A stretch of DNA of 64,000 nucleotides from Thalassolituus hydrocarboniclasticus. GTDB lineage: Bacteria > Pseudomonadota > Gammaproteobacteria > Pseudomonadales > Oceanobacteraceae. The stretch lies in NCBI RefSeq assembly GCF_025345565.1, contig NZ_CP054475.1, positions 701,501-765,500 of the forward strand. The letters run 5' to 3'. Under the pieces are notes generated by a model. The model had not been told where the DNA came from, did no database searches, and was given only the letters and a program-made list of their open reading frames with translations. Below, piece after piece: positions 33,358 to 64,000 of this stretch; the first letter of the stretch is position 1, and every line of letters starts with the position of its first letter. The position numbers and the translations under genes were made by a program.

Positions 33358-33966
33358 AAAAAGCCCCGCGATTGCGGGTAATGCTGTTCACTTAAGCAAC
33401 CAGCCAGCGCTGACTGCATTTGAACAGCCTTTGCGGGGCAAGCCCCTGCGCCCCAATCCGGGGAACTTCTCCCCGGGCCCCTGCTTTGCGCTTTCTGGCC
33501 CGTAATCCTTATTCACTCGTTTTTTACTGACCACGCGTATATCGGGCATCCATGGCCACATACGCTTGTCTGGCATCCATGCCAGCCAGATCGTAAAAAT
33601 CATCGCTCATGGCGGCGGGCCCAGAGGCGCGGTTTATCCCAGCCGCAACGTCGTTTTTATCGAACAGCAATGTCCGCTCTGAAAAGCCGCTTAGCGGAAT
33701 AATCAATGCGCCTGCAGGACGCCGGTTTGAATAATGCTGCGCCGGTACGTCACGGCATGGATGCCGGGCGAGCGAATAGGGCCATGGATGGCCCATTATT
33801 CGCGTTACCGAGATCGCAGGATTATTCAGAGCGGATTAAGTCCTGCACAGCGCGAAGCTGGGGTCGGCCCGCCGGCAAGGGGATAAGTTCCCCTGTGAGG
33901 CATTGGGCGTTTCAAAATGATTTAAAACGTTAAGTGAACAGCATTACGCGATTGCGGGGCTTTTTT
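33358..33966 (+). terminator. Terminator of orn, split by an insertion
   Basis: The left part AAAAAGCCCCGC ends at 33369 and the right part GCGGGGCTTTTTT begins at 33954. Removing 33379-33946 and one copy of the duplicated 12 bases restores a perfect hairpin with a GATT loop and a T-tract. Together the two halves are the clean pre-insertion terminator. Confidence 0.88.
33379..33946. mobile_element. Non-autonomous IS4-like miniature element (568 bp)
   Basis: Perfect inverted ends TAATGCTGTTCACTTAA (33379-33395) and its complement (33930-33946) are flanked by a 12-bp direct repeat CGCGATTGCGGG (33367-33378 and 33947-33958). The termini resemble IS4 (TAATGC...TCA.TTAA), which also makes duplications of 11-13 bp; that comparison is from memory. 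No transposase is present, the longest frames being under 90 codons with no family features. The interior is GC-rich with several hairpins, including GGGCCAT/ATGGCCC near 33780. Confidence 0.85.
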
Positions 33967-42599: not shown

Positions 42600-42854
42600 A
42601 TGTCAAAAGGGCATTCTCTACAAGACCCTTACCTCAATCAGCTGCGCAAAGAACGTATTCCAGTGTCTATCTTTCTGGTAAACGGCATCAAGCTGCAAGG
42701 TCAGATCGAATCATTCGACCAATTTGTTATTCTGCTGAAAAACACGGTCAGTCAGATGGTTTATAAACACGCAATTTCTACTGTTGTACCATCCCGCAAT
42801 GTGCGTCTGCAGCCTGCAGATACCGGCGAAGTTGATGGCAGCAGCGACGAGTAA
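42600..42854 (+). CDS. hfq: RNA chaperone Hfq
   Basis: A hexameric Sm-like protein that pairs small RNAs with mRNAs and, in Pseudomonas, works with Crc in catabolite repression. The 84 residues contain Sm1 ('[18 protein letters not shown]') and the Sm2 end '[13 protein letters not shown]'. The distal face that binds A-rich ARN repeats is made by conserved residues in Sm1. I chose the ATG at 42600 after AAGGAG (42588-42593). The candidate CrcZ-like RNAs near 61-62 kb are plausible ligands. Confidence 0.98.
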
Positions 42855-59282: not shown

Positions 59283-60677
59283 TCAGTTCGCCTGGGGAGG
59301 ACGGCGATTGCGGTTGCGCGGTGAACGGCGGCGGCGTTTTTTGTACTCGCCCTGACCGTCAGCATCGCCTGTGCGCTCGAAATCGCGTGGCGGACGGCTC
59401 TGTACCAGATCCGGATGCTCCTGCTGCAGGCGCGTCCAGAAACCACCGATACCATTCAGGTTTTCACCGGACTGCTCGCGCAGCAGCACAAAATCGTAGG
59501 CGGCACGGAAGCGCGGGTGGGTTAACAGATCTTCAGCCTTGCGGCTCTGGGTGCGGGCCAGACGTAACTGCATCTCCCAGATTTCACGCATCGGGATAGA
59601 AAAGCGCTTGGGAATGGCGGTGCTCTGAATCTGCTGCGCCAGAACCCGGTCGGCTGCTTTCTGCAGTGCCGGATGCGGTGGCATGCCTTTGGCCTCGAAT
59701 TCTTTCTGGATACGCACCAGTGGTGGCCAGAGCAGGGCTGCGAGGAAGAAGTAAGGTGTTACCGATTTACCCGCACGGATGCGCTCATCGGTGTTACGCA
59801 TGGTGTTCTCTGCCATGGTCAGTGCCTGCGGGTCATCGCGCAGGCATTGCTCAGTAGCCGGGAACAGCGGGCCAAACAGCTGATACTCACGCAGCAGGCG
59901 CAGGGTATCCAGCGCCTTGCCGTGCAGAAACAGTTTGAGAATCTCTTCAAATAAACGTGCGGCCGGAATCTGTTCCAGCAATGGGGCCATCACCGGGATT
60001 GGCTCGGCGGTATGCGCCTCAATGCTGAAATCCAGTTTGGCGGCAAAACGGATGGCGCGCAGCATCCGCACTGGATCTTCGCGGTAACGGGTTTCCGGGT
60101 CGCCGATCAGGCGCAGACGACGGTTTTGCAGGTCATCCCAACCGCCGGCATAAGCATGCACGCTGTAGTCGGCAATATCGTAATAGAGAGCGTTGATGGT
60201 GAAATCGCGGCGTACGGCGTCTTCGTCTTTGTTGCCGTAAACGTTATCACGCAGAATCATGCCCTGATCGCCCTTGGCGGCAATCTTACTGGAGTGTTCC
60301 TCAGTGGGCGGGGCGCGGAATGTGGCTACTTCAATTACGTCGCGGCCAAAGACCACGTGCACCAGCTTGAAACGACGGCCGATCAGACGGGAATTACGGA
60401 ACAGCTGATTAACCTGTTCAGGGGTGGCGTCGGTTGCTACGTCGAAATCTTTTGGATGCAGGCCCAGCAGGGTGTCACGAACGCCACCGCCAACCAGCAA
60501 TGCCTGGTGTCCGGCTTTGTTCAGCCGGTACAGTACTTTGAGGGCATTTTCGCTGATGTTGCTGCGACTGATGCTGTGCTCGTCACGTGGCACGATGGTC
60601 AGCTGCACATCGGTACGTGGTTTCTTTTTGCCGAACAGGCGGATAACAGATTTGATCAAATTGGTTGGCCGTTTCAC
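59283..60677 (-). CDS. pcnB: Poly(A) polymerase I
   Basis: PcnB polyadenylates RNA 3' ends and promotes decay. About 464 residues: nucleotidyltransferase core 'LLVGGGVRDTLLGLHPKDFD', RNA-binding 'LRAIRFAAKLDFSIEAH', and a basic tail ('EYKKRRRRSPRNRNRR'). No ATG exists before the conserved core. Possible starts are GTG 60677 (chosen by length against E. coli), GTG 60707 (inside the left inverted repeat of the 60693-60958 element) and TTG 60659; none has a good ribosome site. E. coli pcnB is known to use an inefficient AUU start, so a weak start may be normal. Confidence 0.92.
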   Translation of the reverse strand: MKRPTNLIKSVIRLFGKKKPRTDVQLTIVPRDEHSISRSNISENALKVLYRLNKAGHQALLVGGGVRDTLLGLHPKDFDVATDATPEQVNQLFRNSRLIGRRFKLVHVVFGRDVIEVATFRAPPTEEHSSKIAAKGDQGMILRDNVYGNKDEDAVRRDFTINALYYDIADYSVHAYAGGWDDLQNRRLRLIGDPETRYREDPVRMLRAIRFAAKLDFSIEAHTAEPIPVMAPLLEQIPAARLFEEILKLFLHGKALDTLRLLREYQLFGPLFPATEQCLRDDPQALTMAENTMRNTDERIRAGKSVTPYFFLAALLWPPLVRIQKEFEAKGMPPHPALQKAADRVLAQQIQSTAIPKRFSIPMREIWEMQLRLARTQSRKAEDLLTHPRFRAAYDFVLLREQSGENLNGIGGFWTRLQQEHPDLVQSRPPRDFERTGDADGQGEYKKRRRRSPRNRNRRPPQAN

Positions 60678-60692
60678 GGATTCAGAAGTCTT

Positions 60693-60958
60693 AGGGCCTG
60701 TTAACACTAATTAAACAGGCCTGTTATTGGCTAAAATTTCCTCAGGCAAGGCGCTGAGAGTGTGGCCTAACGGGTTAAGCGAACGAACAGTAACGCAGTA
60801 TGAGGGAATTTTAGCCATAACCCTGCGGGCTGAGGCCAGTGTTCCCCATTAACGTCGTCGTTCGTCATTCATTTAGCCCGCTAATATCACTCCTCTCTCC
60901 TTGTTCTGAGAAAAACTGGTTCTCAGCAGGCCCTGTTCACTTAGTGTTAACAGGCCCT
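60693..60958. repeat. 266-bp inverted-repeat (MITE-like) element at the 5' end of pcnB
   Basis: Perfect 18-bp inverted ends AGGGCCTGTTAACACTAA (60693-60710) and its complement (60941-60958). Inside is a second inverted pair, GGCTAAAATTTCCTCA (60729-60744) facing TGAGGGAATTTTAGCC about 60 bases later, and a hairpin CTGAGAA/TTCTCAG at 60906-60926. There is no coding frame, and no clear target duplication was recognised. It looks like a non-autonomous mobile element. Confidence 0.72.
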
Positions 60959-61070
60959 GATCTTGCAGATAAGCAGGCGAGTGTAACGGTTCACCTGAAT
61001 TTAAGGAACCTCTGAATAGCCTCGTCCGCCTGCAATGGCCGCTGAGTCTGTGTTTCCGGGGAGCAGATAA

Positions 61071-61347
61071 ACAAAAAGCCGCATCAGCGGCTTTGTGAGT
61101 CTTCTCTTTTATTATTGTTATTTTTCAACCAGGCGAACCGACTGTTTTGAATGGACAGGTTCCTGCCCTTTATTTTTCTTATTCTTCACAGCAAAGAGCT
61201 GTGCATTCAAAACAGCGTGTTCATAACACCGGTCTTTTATTGTTGTTGTTATCGAAGACCGTTTTGCCCGGCGCTTTGTTATTTTTATAAGTCGCCGGTT
61301 TTACACTCAGGACGTTTGTTATTTTTATTGTTCGCCTCAGTGTTCTG
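61071..61347 (-). ncRNA. CrcZ-like catabolite-repression RNA, pcnB-proximal copy
   Basis: A transcript of about 275 nt inferred from a sigma-54 promoter at 61358-61373 to the terminator AAAGCCGC/GCGGCTTT with T-tract at 61072-61094. On the minus strand it carries five A-rich CA motifs, at plus positions 61314-61332, 61274-61290, 61234-61252, 61168-61187 and 61106-61126 (for example AACAATAAAAATAACAAA and AATAACAATAATAA). In Pseudomonas, CrcZ lies between cbrB and pcnB, is driven by CbrB and sigma-54, and sequesters Hfq through such motifs. The identification rests on position, promoter and motifs, not on whole-sequence similarity. Confidence 0.85.
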
Positions 61348-61357
61348 CTATGTATAA

Positions 61358-61373
61358 AGCACTAGCCGTGCCA
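61358..61373 (-). promoter_or_regulatory. Sigma-54 promoter of the pcnB-proximal RNA
   Basis: Minus strand TGGCACG-N4-GTGCT: the -24 element is perfect and the -12 has one change from TTGCT. GG and GC are separated by exactly 10 bases. The predicted start of transcription is near 61347. Confidence 0.88.
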
Positions 61374-61423
61374 GTTTTTAAAAATCCTTTTAAATCAATG
61401 GCTTAGTTGTTTTTCGGAGGAAT

Positions 61424-61506
61424 TGTTACCCTTGTGTTCGACTAAAGTGTTACTGCGGACGGGGTCTGAGGTAACAGTCAGTGTTTCGTGGGTAACATTG
61501 TGTAAC
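61424..61506 (-). promoter_or_regulatory. Probable CbrB enhancer of the pcnB-proximal RNA
   Basis: Five GTTAC/GTAAC half-sites (61424-61429, 61448-61453, 61471-61476, 61492-61497, 61502-61506) lie 50-130 bases upstream of the -24 box. This is the distance from which sigma-54 activators work. The 13-mer ACTAAAGTGTTAC (61441-61453) recurs in the upstream unit. Confidence 0.65.
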
Positions 61507-61744
61507 GAGGGGCGGATCGGTGTCTGTCTGACCGGGGATGGCGCTTTTTCTGTCAGAACAAAGTACTGCCTGTTGGCCGTTGTGCGAAATATTCTGTTAA
61601 GCCTGCAGCAGAACCTGATTCACGCAGATGGCGAAAGCACAGCGCTGGTGGTAACAGAATGTTGTGGTCGCCAACAGGTTCTTTGGTCTGGATGACGCTT
61701 GAGGTGTGGTTTGCGGGAAGCAAGGATTGCTGACTGGGTCTTGC

Positions 61745-61919
61745 AGATAAGAGAGATGATTGCTTTGCCAGCTGTGTCGCGGGCAAAGCAATCGTCTTTC
61801 AGTGAGTCGGGGCTTGTTATTATTGTTCTGAACTCAGTGGCCGTTTTTATTTTTATTGTCTGGCCTGTCGCGCTCGTTTTCTTATTTTTATTTTATGAGG
61901 CGCATTTTTTATTGCTTTG
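61745..61919 (-). ncRNA. CrcZ-like catabolite-repression RNA, cbrB-proximal copy
   Basis: A transcript of about 175 nt inferred from a sigma-54 promoter at 61930-61945 to the hairpin GATTGCTTTGCC/GGCAAAGCAATC (61758-61793), which is followed by a pyrimidine-rich but not pure-T tail. CA motifs on the minus strand are at plus positions 61905-61917, 61880-61897, 61844-61860 and 61814-61828 (for example ACAATAAAAATAAAAAC and ACAATAATAACAAG). It is shorter than the other copy and unlike it outside the motifs and promoter. Confidence 0.8.
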
Positions 61920-61929
61920 CTAACTATAT

Positions 61930-61945
61930 AGCTAATGCCGTGCCA
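61930..61945 (-). promoter_or_regulatory. Sigma-54 promoter of the cbrB-proximal RNA
   Basis: Minus strand TGGCACG-N4-TAGCT with exact 10-base spacing between GG and GC. The -24 box is perfect and the -12 has one mismatch. Predicted start near 61919. Confidence 0.85.
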
Positions 61946-62022
61946 ATTCTGATGGTTTGTAAAAAATCATTATTTATCAATGGGTTATGATTTTTCTTTG
62001 GTGGTGGCTCAAATTGCGTTCC

Positions 62023-62141
62023 ACTAAAGTGTTACGCTGCTTGGCGGCAAATGACTGATATTTAGGAGTGGGTGTAACCGAACGGTTACACTTTGGCGGT
62101 CTGGCTGGCCTCAGTAACCTGTCTGAGGCTGTGATTGTTAC
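62023..62141 (-). promoter_or_regulatory. Probable CbrB enhancer of the cbrB-proximal RNA
   Basis: Contains ACTAAAGTGTTAC (62023-62035), a near-perfect palindrome with arms GTGTAACCG / CGGTTACAC at 62072-62091, and further half-sites GTAAC (62114-62118) and TGTTAC (62136-62141). All lie 80-200 bases upstream of the -24 box. Confidence 0.68.
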
Positions 62142-62160
62142 TGACTACTTTCTTTTGCGT

Positions 62161-62240
62161 GGGGTTCCCCGGCATGCGGCGGGGTTCCCCGGCATGCGGC
62201 GGGGTTCCCCGGCATGCGGCGGGGTTTCCCGGTATCGTGG
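62161..62240. repeat. Four tandem 20-bp repeats past cbrB
   Basis: Unit GGGGTTCCCCGGCATGCGGC, three exact copies (62161-62220) and one degenerate copy (62221-62240). Each contains the palindromes GGGGTTCCCC and GCATGC. It starts 38 bases past the cbrB stop and may fold into strong stacked hairpins that end or stabilise the cbrAB transcript. Confidence 0.9.
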
Positions 62241-62277
62241 CGTTCCCGTCAGGGATCGCCTGAAGAATGGCTGGTTG

Positions 62278-63675
62278 TTACTTACTGCTTTTCTTGCGCG
62301 GAATTCCCAGTCGCTGGCGACGTTCCCACAGACTTTTACGTGAGATGCCCAGCTTACGGGCCAGGTCGGTCTCGGTCATGTTGTGTTCGTTTTCCAGCAC
62401 GAAGTGCACAAAGTAGTCGTCCAAAGATAGATCGCCCTGCTGGGGTTGACCATCAACTGGCCCGTATTGTTCATTCTGCAGCAGGTTTTCACGCATCGCC
62501 GGGCTGACATAGCGGTCCGGTGAGAGATCGATCCCCAGCAGATCAGCGCCGATACTTTCGTCATCGGCAAGAATAACGGCACGCTCTACTGCGTTTTCCA
62601 GCTCGCGCACGTTACCCGGCCAGTTGTACTGGCGGATGGCCTGGGTAGCTTCGGCGGTAAAGTGCATTGGCGGTTGCTGCATTTTTTCGCAGGCGCGGGT
62701 GAGCATGGCATTGGCAATTTCAACCACATCGTCGCCCCGCTCGCGCAGTGGCGGCAGATGCAGTTCAACCACATTCAGACGGTAGTAAAGGTCTTCACGG
62801 AACTCGCCGCGACTGGCCAGATCTTTCAGGTTGCGGTGGGTTGCTGCTACCAGGCGGACATCGACCTTTCTGCTTTGTACTGAGCCTACGCGGCGGATTT
62901 CGCCTTCCTGCAGTACGCGCAGCAGGCGTGCCTGAGCCTCGAGTGGCAGTTCACCGATCTCATCAAGAAACAGGGTGCCGCCATCAGCGGCTTCGACCAG
63001 TCCCTGACGCATGGCGTTGGCGCCGGTAAAGGCGCCTTTTTCATGGCCAAACAATTCCGATTCGATCAGGGTTTCCGGAATGGCAGCGCAGTTTACCGAG
63101 ATCATTTCCGCATCGCGGCGCCGGCTCTGATTGTGCAGCGCCCGTGCGACCAGCTCTTTACCGGTGCCGGATTCGCCCTGAATCAGGACGGTGGCGTCGG
63201 TGGGGGCGACTTTGCTGATTTTTTTGAACAGCAACAGCATGGGTTCGCAGCTGCCGATGATGCCGCTGACCGGATACTCTTTGCTGACTTCCTTGCGCAG
63301 ATCGGTATTGGTTGGTTTATGACTGAGGCTGGATTCTTTCAGGATGCGTTTTACCGCCTGAATCATTTCGTCATGGTCGAAAGGTTTGGCGATGTAATCC
63401 ACAGCCCCCATCTTCATGGCGTCAACCGCCGAGCGCAGGCTGGCGTAGCTGGTCATGATCAGGACCGGAGTGTCTCCGGCCAGCTCGACCAGTTCGGTGC
63501 CCATACCGCCGGGCAGGCGCAGATCGCTGATGATCAGGCTGTAGCGGCTCAGGTCTTCATTTTTGGCGGCATCAAGGGAATCCACATCGGTAACTTCGTA
63601 GTCGTGGCGCTGCAACAGGCGGCGCACGGACTGACGGATAATGGCTTCGTCTTCAACAACCAGGATGTGACTCAT
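62278..63675 (-). CDS. cbrB: Sigma-54-dependent response regulator CbrB
   Basis: CbrB activates sigma-54 promoters, including crcZ, under control of the CbrA sensor and sets the carbon/nitrogen balance. 465 residues: receiver (1-120) with phosphoacceptor Asp in 'LIISDLRLPGGMGTEL', an AAA+ domain (about 140-375) with Walker A 'GESGTGKELVARAL' and the sigma-54 contact 'GAFTGA', and a Fis-type helix-turn-helix ('TDLARKLGISRKSLWERRQRL') at the C-terminus. 'DYIAKPFDHDEM' is typical of CbrB. It overlaps cbrA by four bases. Confidence 0.95.
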   Translation of the reverse strand: MSHILVVEDEAIIRQSVRRLLQRHDYEVTDVDSLDAAKNEDLSRYSLIISDLRLPGGMGTELVELAGDTPVLIMTSYASLRSAVDAMKMGAVDYIAKPFDHDEMIQAVKRILKESSLSHKPTNTDLRKEVSKEYPVSGIIGSCEPMLLLFKKISKVAPTDATVLIQGESGTGKELVARALHNQSRRRDAEMISVNCAAIPETLIESELFGHEKGAFTGANAMRQGLVEAADGGTLFLDEIGELPLEAQARLLRVLQEGEIRRVGSVQSRKVDVRLVAATHRNLKDLASRGEFREDLYYRLNVVELHLPPLRERGDDVVEIANAMLTRACEKMQQPPMHFTAEATQAIRQYNWPGNVRELENAVERAVILADDESIGADLLGIDLSPDRYVSPAMRENLLQNEQYGPVDGQPQQGDLSLDDYFVHFVLENEHNMTETDLARKLGISRKSLWERRQRLGIPRKKSSK

Positions 63676-64000
63676 GCAACGGGTTCCGATTCTTCAGTGT
63701 GATGATAGCGTGGCAGGCTGACTTTAACACAAGTGCCGCGGCCGTCGGCGACCGGACTTTCAATAGCGATGTGGCCGTAATGTTCTTCGATGATCGAATA
63801 CACCAGTGACAGTCCCAGTCCGGTGCCTTTACCGACTTCTTTGGTGGTGAAAAAAGGTTCAAAAATGCGGTCGACTTTGTCGGCTGGAATGCCGTGACCC
63901 TGGTCGATAATGCGCACTATCACCTGATGCTCGTCGGTATCGGCAGTAACCCGGATGTTTTGTCCGGGTTCGCTGGCATCCCGCGCATTACTCAGCAGGT
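63672..64000 (-). CDS. cbrA: Sensor histidine kinase CbrA, C-terminal end only
   Basis: Only the last 109 codons are in the window; the 5' part is beyond the right edge. The segment is the HATPase_c domain: N box 'LLSNARDA', G1 'IIDQGHGIP', F box 'IFEPFFTTKE' and G2 'GKGTGLGLSLVYSI'. Assignment as CbrA depends on the four-base overlap with cbrB and the conserved neighbourhood; the transporter-like N-terminal region of CbrA cannot be seen. Confidence 0.88.
   Translation of the reverse strand, partial: LLSNARDASEPGQNIRVTADTDEHQVIVRIIDQGHGIPADKVDRIFEPFFTTKEVGKGTGLGLSLVYSIIEEHYGHIAIESPVADGRGTCVKVSLPRYHHTEESEPVA

Follow-up and report, generated by a model that had tools for sequence, protein, structure and literature searches.

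Tandem CrcZ-like RNAs predicted between cbrB and pcnB in Thalassolituus hydrocarboniclasticus and its family

Introduction

RsmX/Y/Z and CsrB/C are protein-titrating decoy RNAs with repeated binding loops that occur in several copies and bind RsmA/CsrA via GGA motifs. The RNAs described here resemble them in the repeated loops and the presence of several copies, but their predicted target is Hfq instead of RsmA/CsrA, and GGA motifs are not involved. CrcY and CrcX lie at loci other than the cbrB-pcnB gap, whereas the units studied here share that gap. CrcZ of Pseudomonas has the same position between cbrB and pcnB as our RNAs, a promoter using RpoN, CbrB, and IHF, and several A-rich motifs for binding Hfq at its distal face (PMC4063720, PMC8395346), a face that the ARN motif fits (PMC8395346). 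In strain PAO1, a single CrcZ RNA of 407 nt carries six A-rich stretches (PMC4063720), whereas two RNAs are predicted here, one of about 175 nt and one of about 275 nt. Extra CbrB-driven decoys are likewise present per genome as CrcY and CrcX in P. putida, A. vinelandii, and P. syringae (PMC8871633).

Tandem sRNA genes with possible read-through are known from PrrF1/PrrF2/PrrH (PMC8395346). PrrF1 and PrrF2 are Fur-regulated and more than 95% identical, whereas the genes treated here have sigma-54 promoters, encode decoy-like RNAs, and fall into two diverged classes. In PMC8395346, PMC4063720, and PMC9308961, the word "tandem" refers to prrF1/prrF2, and in PMC6296734 it refers to activator binding sites; it is absent from PMC8871633. 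Our search covered the open-access literature, with subscription papers mostly outside it, and yielded neither an account of decoy RNAs in tandem nor a report of CrcZ from this bacterial group, and no paper joining CrcZ with Marinobacter or Oceanospirill. This silence is weak evidence of novelty, and several decoys per genome are already known (CrcY, CrcX).

Results and discussion

Layout of the cbrB-pcnB gap

The window analyzed is a stretch of 64,000 nt of the T. hydrocarboniclasticus genome, and all positions refer to it. On its minus strand, cbrA and cbrB are followed by a gap of 1,570 nt containing the predicted RNA A and RNA B and then by pcnB.

63672..63998, minus strand: C-terminus of cbrA, the rest lying beyond the window (open reading frame; PAS/HisKA/HATPase)
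62278..63675, minus strand: cbrB, sigma-54 response regulator (Pfam Response_reg and Sigma54_activat)
61930..61945, minus strand: sigma-54 promoter A, TGGCACGGCATTAGCT (sequence match)
about 61743..61919, minus strand: RNA A, about 175 nt with four (ARN)4+ blocks, of which three fall in predicted hairpin loops (folding, class A stems, model R1)
61358..61373, minus strand: sigma-54 promoter B, TGGCACGGCTAGTGCT (sequence match)
about 61064..61347, minus strand: RNA B, about 275 nt with five (ARN)4+ blocks (folding; model R2 for the 3′ half)
59283..60707, minus strand: pcnB (TIGR01942, 521 bits)

The original prediction, made from the sequence of this locus, had proposed two RNAs between cbrB and pcnB, each behind a minus-strand sigma-54 promoter. 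The location is borne out by the gene order and the TIGR01942 match of pcnB, and both promoters were recovered; they have the form TGGCAC-N7-GCT and are 572 nt apart. With the usual sigma-54 promoter spacing, the 5′ ends are predicted at about 61920 (RNA A) and about 61348 (RNA B), the same positions as proposed before. No open reading frame of at least 80 aa was present on the minus strand over the two RNAs.

CbrB was named from the gene order and its partners; among the 25 matches listed for this protein, no NCBIfam model reached its cut-off. CbrA comprises 978 aa with a histidine kinase at the C-terminus, and the best-covered part, residues 1-594, matches PDB 10ed_A, an entry deposited under the name "histidine kinase" (E 3e-207). 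No Pfam transporter domain was detected in CbrA at E 0.001. Both Hfq and Crc are encoded in the genome. One of the seven Exo_endo_phos matches is Crc, with PDB 4jg3, a catabolite repression control protein, as best PDB match (E 1.5e-76), and hfq lies within the window.

42600..42854, plus strand: hfq (Pfam Hfq; PDB 1u1s, E 8.5e-40; the best PDB matches are Hfq entries)

Promoter elements and likeness to CrcZ

Upstream of both promoters we found putative CbrB half-sites (GTTAC/GTAAC), and the stretch from these to the promoter contains a predicted IHF site that agrees perfectly with the IHF consensus, WATCAANNNNTTR. Neither element had been part of the original prediction.

62031..62141, minus strand: five putative CbrB half-sites of RNA A, spanning −196 to −90 relative to the promoter (sequence match)
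61975..61987, plus strand: predicted IHF site upstream of promoter A; TATCAATGGGTTA fits the consensus perfectly (sequence match)
61425..61506, minus strand: putative CbrB half-sites of RNA B, GTTAC at −133, −123, and −102 and GTAAC at −80, with one more GTAAC closer to the promoter
61393..61405, plus strand: predicted IHF site upstream of promoter B; AATCAATGGCTTA likewise fits perfectly (sequence match)

The P. putida crcZ and crcY promoters, with subsites F1, R1, and R2 and an IHF site, have the same layout (PMC6296734). The elements recur in the 102 units (promoter plus A-rich RNA) of the window's family. An IHF site with at most one mismatch was present in the expected stretch of 97 units (14% of shuffled stretches) and a perfect one in 53 (0.8%), and half-sites averaged 3.9 per unit compared to 0.30 in shuffles, counts that are not independent tests because the units are related, and whose shuffles preserve base composition only. 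At least two half-sites were found in 95 units; the remaining seven, six first units of genus g7 with one each and unit 1 of L169 with none, had just 77-100 nt of searchable upstream gap.

Defining an A-rich block as at least four ARN triplets, we counted four blocks in RNA A and five in RNA B, in agreement with the motif numbers and the unequal lengths (about 175 and 275 nt) originally proposed for two A-rich transcripts. In the covariance search suggested at that time, run over 1.8 kb, both RNAs matched the Rfam CrcZ family (RF01675), but the 38.5 and 25.0 bits obtained (E 3e-8 and 3e-4), scores that A-rich sequence can inflate, are far below the cut-off of 95 bits, and we therefore call the RNAs CrcZ-like and not members of RF01675. 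In the remaining sequence features that we tested, they resemble CrcZ. They lie between cbrB and pcnB, carry several (ARN)n motifs, and have, as judged from sequence matches, sigma-54 promoters with CbrB subsites and an IHF site. The earlier proposal of CrcZ-like decoys in tandem is thus supported by gene order, by the CbrB, IHF, and sigma-54 sites, by the A-rich loops, and by the presence of CbrA, Crc, and Hfq. RNA A and RNA B are very probably decoys for Hfq (and Crc) that are switched by CbrB and RpoN and form two separate transcription units.

Occurrence in the family and the order

CbrB orthologues were found in all 44 genomes of the window's family (eight genera), and the cbrB-pcnB gap was complete in 40 of them, the gaps left out being those of L160, L170, and L171, which meet a contig edge, and of G003, in which pcnB lies elsewhere. 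Each of the 40 complete gaps contained at least two units (two in 23 gaps, three in 15, and four in 2). The tandem is therefore no local pair but a family-wide arrangement of two to four copies, and its presence in all complete gaps indicates more than chance. These counts include a hand correction of the one-step promoter scoring, by which a match without blocks at position 118 of L033 and 0.78-scoring matches in L153 and L154 were removed as spurious, and two missed units with good promoters were added, namely, unit 1 of L151 and unit 2 of L163.

In a sample of 145 genomes across the order, 121 encoded a CbrB relative with an E value of 1e-130 or better, 116 of them outside the family. We read 49 of these 116 gaps, L048 being dropped because of a contig edge, using a rule slightly unlike that for the family (a promoter score of 0.85 and two blocks inside 150 nt). 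With pcnB in reach (45 gaps), one unit was called in 33, two in 7, and none in 5; without pcnB in reach (4 gaps), one unit was called in 2 and none in 2. These numbers may be low because hand corrections were confined to the window's family; L176, for example, has 20 A-rich blocks and a single called promoter. The two-unit gaps (L051, L184, L185, L190, L197, L202, and L210, with units 337-1476 nt apart) belong to families f6, f14, f30, f38, and f47. As both gaps read in f47 and the one read in f30 have two units, tandem pairs are not unique to the window's family, while more than two units were seen only there among the gaps read.

A protein search with CbrB returned 80 loci, six of which (L058-L063, from Pseudomonas, Gilvimarinus, Serpens, and others) are clear CbrB relatives with 61-65% identity. 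Five of the six have one promoter in the gap, and in the gap of L059 no promoter was found. The other 74 loci encode more distant regulators and were set aside. Two papers call CbrAB unique to Pseudomonadaceae or pseudomonads (PMC8871633, PMC6296734); in contrast, CbrB relatives occur across the order, and outside the family a decoy-like RNA is present in the majority of the 49 gaps that we read. One family of marine bacteria, which probably includes an oil-degrading Thalassolituus, appears to have turned a single decoy gene into an array of two to four.

Two classes of units

In a midpoint-rooted tree of 101 units, two groups were formed, with modest support at the split (0.66 and 0.74). In the two-copy genomes, 22 of 23 first units fell into one group (A) and all 22 last units into the other (B). 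Over all genomes, this held for 34 of 43 first and 39 of 39 last units; eight of the nine exceptional first units are from genus g2, in which the array has another construction. The ninth is from L170, at a contig edge. Topology tests were carried out with 12 of the 23 two-copy genomes, representing six genera and leaving out g2 and g6. The A/B split fitted as well as the free tree. For the whole unit, whose alignment includes gap sequence beyond the end of RNA A, grouping by genus was rejected (p-AU 2e-6, p-SH 0.047), and grouping by genome more strongly so (p-AU 5e-25). For the promoter and RNA start alone, grouping by genome was rejected by both AU and SH, and grouping by genus failed the AU test (0.018) and passed the SH test (0.17). 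From these tests, A and B are most likely classes that diverged before the six tested genera split. Later duplications were seen for class B in g6 and g4 and for class A in g3.

These data bear on the alternative that the copies are interchangeable and kept for dosage only, as additional Hfq sites without any division of labor. The median number of A-rich blocks per gap grows with copy number (9, 12, and 15.5 for two, three, and four copies, compared to 5 in other families), and near-identical recent duplicates exist (units 3 and 4 of L041), as would be expected for a pure dosage effect. That first and last units of two-copy genomes belong to different tree groups, and that a grouping by genus is rejected, by AU alone when only the promoter part is considered, argues in the other direction. 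We regard the dosage explanation as a serious contender, while leaning somewhat against it.

Within the genome of the window, the class A model R1 detected only the two units of the gap at E 0.01, and the class B model R2 detected RNA B and three weak matches of 31-38 bits. The latter were rejected as decoys, each consisting of the end of a coding stretch with a terminator-like hairpin after it; no TGGCAY-type promoter was found in the 300 nt preceding them, and one (L214) has an A-rich stretch before the hairpin. R1 and R2 thus revealed no further copy elsewhere in this genome, with the stricter filters of Infernal being liable to lose weak copies.

Anatomy of RNA A and RNA B

Both RNAs fold better than expected, with z-scores of −4.7 for RNA A and −7.2 for RNA B, and none of 200 dinucleotide-preserving shuffles folded as well in either case. 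The following elements were assigned.

61758..61793, minus strand: RNA A 3′ hairpin, 12-bp stem, followed by AUCUCUCUUAUCU, a U/C tract without T-run
61141..61216, minus strand: class B stem-loop enclosing the fourth A-rich block, GCTGTTTTGAATG paired with CATTCAAAACAGT (25-sequence alignment)
61075..61094, minus strand: RNA B terminator hairpin of standard type (terminator scan)

A hairpin had been predicted at the end of each RNA. RNA B indeed ends in a standard terminator, and RNA A has the 12-bp hairpin, which lacks a T-run and was missed by a terminator scan of positions 60700-62300. The scan returned three sites compared to 2.5 expected by chance, namely, the RNA B end, one within RNA B, and one on the plus strand. 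As its hairpin is not recognized as a terminator, the 3′ end given for RNA A is a guess. The hairpin is nevertheless conserved in class A, with 11 of the 17 consensus pairs showing a both-side change in one or more of the 19 sequences (RNAalifold), and conservation without a T-run suggests that the end may be leaky or processed.

RNA A might accordingly be read as the leader of a longer transcript, started at cbrB or running from A into B, that is later processed in the way of PrrH, which is transcribed across the tandem prrF1/prrF2 genes (PMC8395346). Processed cbrB-crcZ cotranscripts have been described in Pseudomonas (PMC8395346) and A. vinelandii (PMC6292655), and the absence of a recognized terminator from RNA A fits this picture. 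We consider it unlikely, because promoter, half-sites, and IHF site are present at nearly all 102 family units and because A and B occur apart from each other in one genome. In G003 (2.83 Mb; L172, C1:382000-399000), cbrB and A have been split from B and pcnB through a rearrangement, with 11.6 kb in between and in opposite orientation; A and B each have their own promoter, and B keeps its own half-sites, so that B need not depend on A. Read-through would supplement the two promoters and not replace them.

Class A RNAs consist of a 5′ block, three loop blocks, and the 3′ hairpin. The first stem is TGCGC/GCGCG in RNA A and TGTGCCCC/GGGGTACA, GCACTC/GAGTGC, GATCACAT/ATGTGATC, or ATGTTGCTC/GAGCAACAT in relatives. 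In a per-sequence check of 19 class A RNAs, the stem letters varied between species with pairing kept, although this check takes the best stem near each block without a null and some of its picks (L037, L038) are nonhomologous. The RNAalifold consensus of class A shows the 3′ hairpin alone because MAFFT misaligns the short loop stems; in own-genus alignments the second stem was still misaligned. In class B, the fourth block lies within a long duplex of TTTTGAATG with CATTCAAAA, for which 96% of the cells of the 25-sequence alignment are paired and both-side changes occur at 7 of 14 pairs. When both helices (22 pairs) were scored, all 500 shuffles stayed short of the observed values on each of the five measures, and pairing fell to 31-49% when the partners were slid against each other; the structure was derived from the alignment used to score it, which biases these values in its favor.

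Most A-rich blocks of the two RNAs can be drawn in the loops of short hairpins. Among the 439 blocks of the family's gaps, which include stray ones, 57% have an enclosing stem scoring at least 12 compared to 19% with shuffled flanks, and the stem was significant for the single block (p < 0.05) in 140 of 439 cases and in two of nine in the window. Many sRNAs are Hfq-bound, but an identity of these RNAs as normal base-pairing sRNAs, or as mere untranslated spacer in which A-runs occur by chance, is highly improbable in view of A-rich loops that are conserved while the stems change, of several loops per RNA as in a decoy, and of conserved promoter elements.

Proposed function

The anatomy of the RNAs, their conservation, their promoter elements, and the encoded partners are seen in the sequences; we infer that both RNAs are transcribed, bind Hfq, and influence repression. 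On a poor carbon source, CbrA/CbrB with IHF and RpoN would turn on RNA A and RNA B separately, and the string of A-rich (ARN)n loops in each RNA would bind the distal face of Hfq. Hfq, together with Crc, would thereby be drawn off catabolic mRNAs and catabolite repression lifted, as by CrcZ in Pseudomonas. The work of a CrcZ-type RNA would be shared by two RNAs with about nine binding blocks together, RNA A representing a short class whose 3′ end looks leaky and RNA B a longer class that has a strong terminator in addition to a stable duplex.

A more far-reaching proposal, which we put forward tentatively and hold to be rather unlikely in its entirety, is that the carbon hierarchy of this marine family is run by a multigene decoy array. 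A and B would have been kept since before several genera diverged for different kinetics of Hfq/Crc titration or different stability, the leaky end of A may add an A-B RNA, and units gained or lost would act as a copy-number dial on catabolite repression. Whether several CrcZ-type RNAs serve dose or different jobs is a standing question that can now be tested directly, as relatives that differ naturally in copy number, and one in which A and B have become separated naturally, are available for comparison.

Other features of the window

The listed GTG start of pcnB lies inside a repeat element, and the real start is probably further inside the open reading frame. This element of 266 bp (60693-60958) is located between RNA B and pcnB, overlaps the listed start, and has 27-nt terminal inverted repeats (93%). 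It has eight more near-complete matches (at least 255 bp) and several partial ones in the genome, and among eight aligned gaps of the genus it was present only in G000 (this genome) and G008; it looks like a MITE. Immediately 3′ of cbrB (62161-62232), a 20-bp GC-rich tandem repeat of 3.6 copies was found, which is absent from the seven own-genus gaps aligned alongside. At 33707-33853 on the plus strand, the window contains a TwoAYGGAY RNA (RF01731; 48 bits, cut-off 43), a family for which we know of no function.
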